Positions 13,938-30,916 of a stretch of DNA of 54,372 nucleotides are shown one piece after another. A program made the translations under genes and the position numbers. Each line of letters starts with the position of its first letter. Positions within the stretch are counted from its first letter, which is position 1. The notes below the pieces were generated by a model. It searched no databases. It saw only the letters and a list, made by a program, of their open reading frames with translations, and was not told where the DNA came from. The DNA comes from Draconibacterium orientale (lineage in GTDB: Bacteria > Bacteroidota > Bacteroidia > Bacteroidales > UBA1556), in assembly GCA_020718275.1 (NCBI GenBank), contig DYSI01000002.1, positions 29,039 to 83,410 of the forward strand. Direction: 5' to 3'.

Positions 13938-14097
13938 TTTATAATTCGATAAAATTAGGGAAGTTTTTAGAAAAAATAACAATTAAATAATAATTTTAAA
14001 TGTTGACTGAAATTTTATAACAAATGAGCTCGTTTTATTGTTTACAATTTGTTAATACAATTTTCAAATAAAAACAAAACATAAGGAGCTGAGAATA

Positions 14098-14105
14098 TAT
14101 CTTTG
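14098..14105 (+). promoter_or_regulatory. -7 box (TATCTTTG) of the pyrBI leader
   Basis: TATCTTTG followed by CGGC matches the consensus exactly and ends 20 nt before the leader ORF start at 14126. Transcription from here produces a roughly 265-nt leader before pyrB. No obvious TTG was found at the -33 distance. Confidence 0.55.
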
Positions 14106-14125
14106 CGGCTGTTTAAATTAAGGGA

Positions 14126-14317
14126 ATGAGCAAAACAACAATCAGCAAGGAAATAGGTTTTGAAACACACCAATTAATTTTTCGGACTTGGTTTCTAGTT
14201 TTTCAGCTTTCATTAACTCAAAGTCTACTTTTCGATTATTGTCAAAACTCCTGCAGTAGAAGTCCAAAATCAAAACTAGTTTTGCAGTCAAACTGCAATC
14301 ATATTAGTGAATTTTAA
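14126..14317 (+). CDS. putative 63-residue leader peptide of pyrBI
   Basis: This is a small open frame (MSKTTISKEIGFETH...NHISEF) between the promoter box and pyrB, preceded by AAGGGA directly before the ATG. It has no recognisable domain and a Phe/Leu-rich middle encoded by U-rich codons. Its stop (14315-14317) lies 11 nt before the 5' arm of the terminator hairpin, so a ribosome finishing it would reach the stem. That is the geometry of the enterobacterial pyrBI attenuator, in which close coupling of ribosome and polymerase depends on UTP. It could be a chance frame; the position argues otherwise. Confidence 0.5.
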   Translation: MSKTTISKEIGFETHQLIFRTWFLVFQLSLTQSLLFDYCQNSCSRSPKSKLVLQSNCNHISEF

Positions 14318-14355
14318 AATACGTTACCAGCTACTGAATCAGTAGCTTTTTTTTT
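14224..14355 (+). promoter_or_regulatory. candidate pyrBI transcription attenuator (alternating hairpins)
   Basis: Four short segments can pair in alternative ways. TCTACT (14224-14229) pairs with AGTAGA (14255-14260). CAGTAG (14254-14259) pairs with CTACTG (14331-14336). AGCTACTGA (14329-14337) pairs with TCAGTAGCT (14339-14347), and that last pair is followed by nine T (14347-14355), making an intrinsic terminator 23 bp before pyrB. A separate small hairpin TTGCAGT/ACTGCAA lies at 14282-14298. So the upstream CAGTAG could act as an antiterminator strand. No PyrR-box-like sequence was seen. Confidence 0.55.
14329..14355 (+). terminator. intrinsic terminator inside the pyrB leader
   Basis: AGCTACTGA and TCAGTAGCT form a self-complementary stem (the innermost pairs would open to make a loop), with nine consecutive T's at 14347-14355. 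It lies upstream of, not after, pyrB, which is the reason to regard it as an attenuator. Confidence 0.75.
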
Positions 14356-14378
14356 GTTTAATTTTTTAATTATTCGCA

Positions 14379-30614: not shown

Positions 30615-30857
30615 ATGGGAAAAGGCGATATAAAATCAAGAAGAGGTAAAATATCCAATCGTTCGTACGGAAAACTACGCAAAAAAAGGAAAGCCACTTT
30701 ACAAATTGTGAATCAAGAAGTTAAAACAAAAAAAGAGGAATCTAAAGCAGCTGGACAGGTTAAAACCAAGCCTGAAAAATCGCTAGCTAATAAAACAGAC
30801 GAAACCATTTTAGAAAAACCAAAAGCTGCTAGAAAGAGAGTTGCAAAAAAAGAATAA
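30615..30857 (+). CDS. 30S ribosomal protein THX with extended basic tail
   Basis: The first ~25 residues, MGKGDIKSRRGKISNRSYGK, match the short THX peptide that sits at the head of the 30S subunit. The remaining ~55 residues are a Lys/Ala/Glu-rich low-complexity tail (for example AARKRVAKKE at the end), so this 80-residue protein is two to three times the usual THX length. It has its own promoter-like box and terminator. Confidence 0.85.
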   Translation: MGKGDIKSRRGKISNRSYGKLRKKRKATLQIVNQEVKTKKEESKAAGQVKTKPEKSLANKTDETILEKPKAARKRVAKKE

Positions 30858-30887
30858 AATCAGCGATATATCTCAATATAACCCTAA

Positions 30888-30916
30888 AACCTTGAGCGAT
30901 GCTTAAGGTTTTTTTT
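30888..30916 (+). terminator. terminator of the THX gene
   Basis: AACCTTGAGC and GCTTAAGGTT pair over 10 bp (one G-U) around a GAT loop, followed by eight T's. Confidence 0.88.

Follow-up and report, generated by a model that had tools for sequence, protein, structure and literature searches.

The intergenic region ahead of pyrB in the Draconibacterium orientale window (the whole stretch of DNA analysed, 54,372 nucleotides) would appear to contain an attenuator of pyrBI that is coupled to translation and works as in enterobacterial pyrBI; we put the probability of this reading at roughly 0.55. The window comes from an 83-kb contig of an uncultured member of the Bacteroidales whose genome is 71% complete. 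Between a glycogen-debranching gene (minus strand, start 13844) and pyrB (14379) lies a gap of 534 bases, and on its plus strand a TATCTTTG box, a 63-codon frame, an intrinsic terminator and a further 23 bp precede, in that order, pyrB and pyrI (Table 1). A pyrBI-like attenuator had been proposed here in an initial annotation. Its promoter, probable leader, terminator and geometry were supported, and the layout was found to recur; the antiterminator and the U-rich frame which belonged to the proposal were not supported.

Table 1. Features ahead of and including pyrBI, with their positions in the window
Feature	Position	Strand	Basis or remark
Putative upstream promoter element TTTACAATTTGTTAAT	14041–14056	+	position shared with FKBP promoters of relatives
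−7 box TATCTTTG	14098–14105	+	aligns with FKBP promoter of relatives
Leader frame, 63 codons, ATG start, probably translated	14126–14317	+	open reading frame; aligned ATG; proximity to hairpin
Candidate pause hairpin TTGCAGT-CAA-ACTGCAA, inside leader frame	14282–14298	+	dG −7.2
Intrinsic terminator, 8-bp stem, 3-nt loop, T run	14329–14355	+	dG −9.4; hairpin in relatives
pyrB, aspartate carbamoyltransferase catalytic chain, 303 aa	14379–15290	+	sequence and family knowledge
pyrI, aspartate carbamoyltransferase regulatory chain, 153 aa	15324–15785	+	named by sequence and position

The −7 box is present where it had been annotated, from 14098 onward, and represents what we take to be the housekeeping promoter type of Bacteroidota (TAnnTTTG). 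On reading the sequence, no TTG or TTTG could be recognised at the −33 distance from it. A promoter ahead of pyrB is a supported prediction. The motif TTTACAAWWTGTTAAT is found 56–57 nt before the −7 box in the window and likewise ahead of an FKBP-type isomerase gene in three relatives (G001, G003, G004); it shows no excess across the window as a whole, and is possibly the site of a regulator. Loci L114, L115 and L116 are those with the motif upstream of FKBP, which makes four genomes with the window, and a near copy, TTCACAATTTGTTAAT, was noted ahead of pyrB in L008 and L009, both without FKBP at that place.

The terminator, with its hairpin AGCTACTG-AAT-CAGTAGCT at 14329–14347 and a T run extending to 14355, was correctly placed by the annotation 23 bp before pyrB. 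It is the sole plus-strand intergenic terminator in the 54 kb which does not follow the end of a gene, and transcripts would be expected to terminate there. A second orphan candidate on the plus strand, at 30890, was explained by the gene preceding it: at 30615–30908 a small basic protein of 80 aa is followed by a terminator, 59 nt ahead of the next gene. Rfam gave no match, either for the window or for the pyrB leaders at ten related loci.

The leader frame is also present as annotated, and its stop codon indeed lies 11 nt before the hairpin stem. An ATG frame of 63 codons arose within 14105–14328 in 0.16% of dinucleotide shuffles and anywhere in the whole intergenic region in 2.3%; shuffle frequencies for the frame, as for the 6-mers considered below, are nominal, the features having been picked by eye. 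A frame coming this close to the hairpin (15 nt or less) had p = 0.01 in the window. The description of the frame as U-rich had to be dropped (T 0.33 in the frame vs 0.37 in the intergenic region), and a U-run next to the hairpin was not significant (p = 0.42). The leader peptide is not conserved, even within the genus, and of the leader DNA only the hairpin and the T-rich stretch that follows it were matched in relatives. The frame is probably translated. The 75 nt ahead of the terminator are more stably folded than their shuffled versions (p = 0.027), and at one related locus (L003) a strong hairpin occupies a place similar to that of the candidate pause hairpin (p = 0.003); L004, L005 and L007 have no counterpart of a strong pause hairpin. 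A pause hairpin was rejected as a general feature, its support being nominal in the genus and two clades and lacking in others.

If the attenuator works as proposed, RNA polymerase would begin immediately downstream of the TATCTTTG box, with a ribosome translating the 63-codon frame. When UTP is low, the polymerase would pause in AU-rich RNA, and the ribosome would be close behind it at 14329–14355, covering the RNA and blocking the hairpin, with the result that pyrBI is transcribed; when UTP is high, the polymerase would run ahead, the hairpin would form and transcription would stop. The sequences themselves show the anatomy, a hairpin conserved in the genus and the recurrence of the layout before pyrB across Bacteroidales; from these we infer that the frame is translated, that transcription terminates, that the two are coupled and that UTP is the signal. 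UTP sensing is supported by U-runs in some clades, but not in the window, where it is unproven, since the frame is not U-rich and no significant U-run precedes the hairpin. Counted against the attenuator in the window are also the unconserved peptide and promoter–hairpin sequence, and the three genus members (L008–L010) in which the hairpin before pyrB is absent.

The same hairpin stands ahead of pyrB in five same-genus relatives (G001, G003, G004, G009, G010), and thus in six of nine genus members when the window is included. PyrB identities to the eight same-genus relatives where pyrB was found were 78–86%. (A short contig of genome G000 carries a second carbamoyltransferase with 36% identity to PyrB, L002, at G000:C74:159-968, a paralog or a contaminant.) The comparison of leaders across relatives, which the annotation had suggested as a check, showed the hairpin arms to be kept, but neither the peptide of the frame nor the antiterminator partner to be conserved. 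The annotation had also missed a gene: in all five relatives an FKBP-type isomerase is encoded between the same promoter and the hairpin, and the window appears to be the one hairpin-bearing member that lost it. In G001, G003 and G004 the debranching gene lies divergently on the far side of FKBP; for G001, FKBP and pyrB are on two contigs, which were joined via the FKBP 3' end upstream of pyrB. The window genome, at its 71% completeness, yielded no ortholog of this gene, its best FKBP matches being a different, multi-domain FKBP protein. Promoter and leader ATG of the window align with the FKBP promoter and ATG of the relatives, the spacing from box to ATG being 28 nt in the window and 26–39 nt in the FKBP-bearing relatives; given these similar spacings, and those from TTTACAAWWTGTTAAT to the box, the leader ATG would occupy the former FKBP ATG site. 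In the pyrB tree the window was placed beside G003, within the FKBP-bearing group and with moderate support (84/88), a placement that speaks for FKBP having been lost in the lineage of the window. Synteny and alignment together suggest that the leader probably arose on loss of the FKBP gene from between promoter and hairpin. The frame does not appear to be a decayed FKBP protein, its similarity being not above that of shuffles (p 0.67 and 0.83).

Because the hairpin follows FKBP in five relatives, it could be the terminator of that gene. Promoter and terminator would then have been left before pyrB as a relic of gene loss, expression of pyrBI would depend on read-through without regulation or on a promoter that escaped recognition, and the 63 codons would be a chance frame. 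We consider this unlikely, but it is the main rival for the window and a serious one. The position of FKBP between the same promoter and hairpin, the nesting of the window among FKBP-bearing relatives and a frame with neither conserved sequence nor U-run all agree with it. Less easily reconciled with it is the distance of the hairpin from FKBP, which is 85–245 nt past the stop codon in four relatives, the last part being occupied by a short frame whose end lies anywhere from 10 nt short of the hairpin to 13 nt within it (for such short frames reaching the hairpin, Fisher p = 1.9e-4); in G009 the hairpin overlaps the FKBP end. Furthermore, the hairpin stays paired in all six genus members, the window has no promoter box in the interval from hairpin to pyrB, and the same layout is found before pyrB where FKBP is absent. 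In G009 (L006, 56–34 nt before pyrB) the FKBP frame was seen to read through the hairpin and to end 6 nt before pyrB, which reflects either a genuine fusion or a misassembly.

Beyond the genus, pyrB of Bacteroidales repeatedly stands behind a promoter box, then a small frame and then a hairpin with its T run, the hairpins being unrelated in sequence (GCGAC/GTCGC, GACGGC/GCCGTC, CGACC/GGTCG, CCAATATAA/TTATATTGG). In 43 of 46 assembled leaders a box was present upstream of the hairpin, at a distance of 25–180 nt, and in none of the 46 between hairpin and pyrB; at other pyrB loci a box stood 10–90 nt before pyrB in 25 of 107. Small frames extend as far as the hairpin or across it in 26 leaders (Fisher p 9e-13), and in 21 after removal of close relatives (p 8e-11). 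Since the leaders were in part chosen by hand for having box and hairpin, and several are relatives of one another, these values are nominal, as are those given for frames and U-runs in the window and its relatives. U-runs ahead of the hairpin were significant overall (p = 4e-4), with runs of U7–9 just before it in some leaders, notably those of one gut clade. Orphan terminators precede 25 of 151 pyrB genes vs 8 of 599 other genes at the same loci (p = 2e-12), the latter obtained by crude gene calling. We think it quite probable that in many Bacteroidales this architecture is genuine and has a regulatory role. The wider proposition, that pyrB in this order is commonly controlled by a ribosome-occluded attenuator of the pyrBI type, which has kept its architecture while its sequence turned over, originated repeatedly and may re-form from a deleted gene, is given an even chance.

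The hairpin of family f42 was paired in 97% of cells, 7 of its 13 pairs were changed on both sides, and its covariation values were reached by 0–1 of 500 shuffles. Covariation, for which the annotation had asked, was found in f42; in the genus of the window the shared hairpin core has G-U changes only. The leaders of f22 and f42 were fetched from families with one member already positive and do not sample the order at random. In f42 (L185–L211) the covarying hairpin, ACCAATATAA..TTATATTGGT with a T run, is located about 30–130 nt before pyrB in many genera; no Rfam match to it was obtained for L196, L199 and L207. In f22 (L176–L184) the leader frames upstream of pyrB have in common a core resembling RLPxESxR as well as a GACTC..GAGTC hairpin, after which come a U-rich stretch and a CGACC..GGTCG terminator. 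Synonymous changes in the leader peptides of two other clades were in slight excess (94 vs 73 and 47 vs 36 expected), from which purifying selection was not concluded; the weak conservation of the peptides there counts against the attenuator. A further conserved order, at L011–L024 and other loci, has a GTPase-like gene upstream of pyrB with a terminator unusually near its stop, the hairpin mostly lying 5–11 nt past it; taking all terminators, the median gap from stop to terminator was 11.5 nt before pyrB vs 25 nt for other genes. The GTPase-like gene may itself act as a leader.

A variant of our preferred explanation retains occlusion by the ribosome, with the general state of translation or growth as the signal instead of UTP. 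It takes account of the fact that the geometry is evident in the window and a U-rich pause site is not; the U7–9 runs right before the hairpin in the gut clade argue against it, as does the nature of the regulated gene, which encodes the committed step of pyrimidine synthesis, and we judge it improbable. An attenuator of the trp/his type, in which a stalled ribosome would select either the terminator or an antiterminator formed by CAGTAG (14254–14259) with the left arm of the terminator, can be practically dismissed: the annotated complementarity of CAGTAG to either partner exists and such a pair of mutually exclusive 6-mers is nominally rare (0.6% of shuffles), but on folding the antiterminator had an equilibrium probability of 0 with the terminator present and its 6-nt partner is not conserved in relatives, on which grounds the proposed exclusive fold was rejected, the 63 leader codons contain no run for a single amino acid (as judged by composition), and in amino-acid attenuators over 20 bp separate the leader stop from the terminator (PMC4824070), compared with 11 in the window.

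Attenuation by ribosome occlusion needs a ribosome which follows RNA polymerase closely. To our knowledge, it is not settled whether ribosomes do so in Bacteroidota, which include major gut bacteria. If the wider proposition on pyrB of Bacteroidales is true, it would imply close coupling of transcription and translation in this phylum, and an attenuator before pyrB could serve as a ready in vivo reporter for it. Such an attenuator would also be a candidate for pyrimidine control in genomes without PyrR, and an example of a regulatory device that keeps its architecture and not its sequence.

Among known systems, PyrR-dependent attenuation in Bacillus likewise places pyr genes under terminator-based control, but needs the RNA-binding protein PyrR. 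None of 41 genomes, including the 71% complete window genome, exceeded the NF003549 cut-off, above which 6 of 14 controls were found, and control by PyrR was rejected on this count. Amino-acid operons of Flavobacterium psychrophilum are attenuated through a leader peptide and a terminator (PMC9723704) and thus offer a parallel within Bacteroidota, though for other operons. Transcriptome papers on Bacteroides and Flavobacterium mention frames resembling leader peptides (PMC7366714, PMC9723704); pyrB does not occur in their main texts, nor in that of a large survey of premature terminators (PMC2965389), and since the literature was covered in part, an earlier description may exist.

The closest counterpart is pyrBI with its leader pyrL in Escherichia coli and Salmonella, where a promoter, a short leader frame and an intrinsic terminator also precede pyrBI. 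Homology is neither shown nor likely; no relation in sequence between the two leaders was seen by eye, and none is expected. The window differs from pyrBI in lacking a strong U-run, in its Bacteroidota promoter and in the position of its leader at the site of a lost FKBP gene. Its frame stops 11 nt before the hairpin, whereas pyrL runs through it, the pyrBI terminator being inside its leader gene (PMC4824070). In E. coli, terminators up to about 27 nt from a stop codon are repressed by translating ribosomes (PMC4824070), and pyrBI uses no antiterminator switch (PMC5021804). In both systems the end of the frame is so near the hairpin that a ribosome could block it, and an antiterminator is not needed; with the 11-nt gap of the window and with frames entering the hairpins elsewhere in Bacteroidales, the leaders match the geometry of pyrBI.
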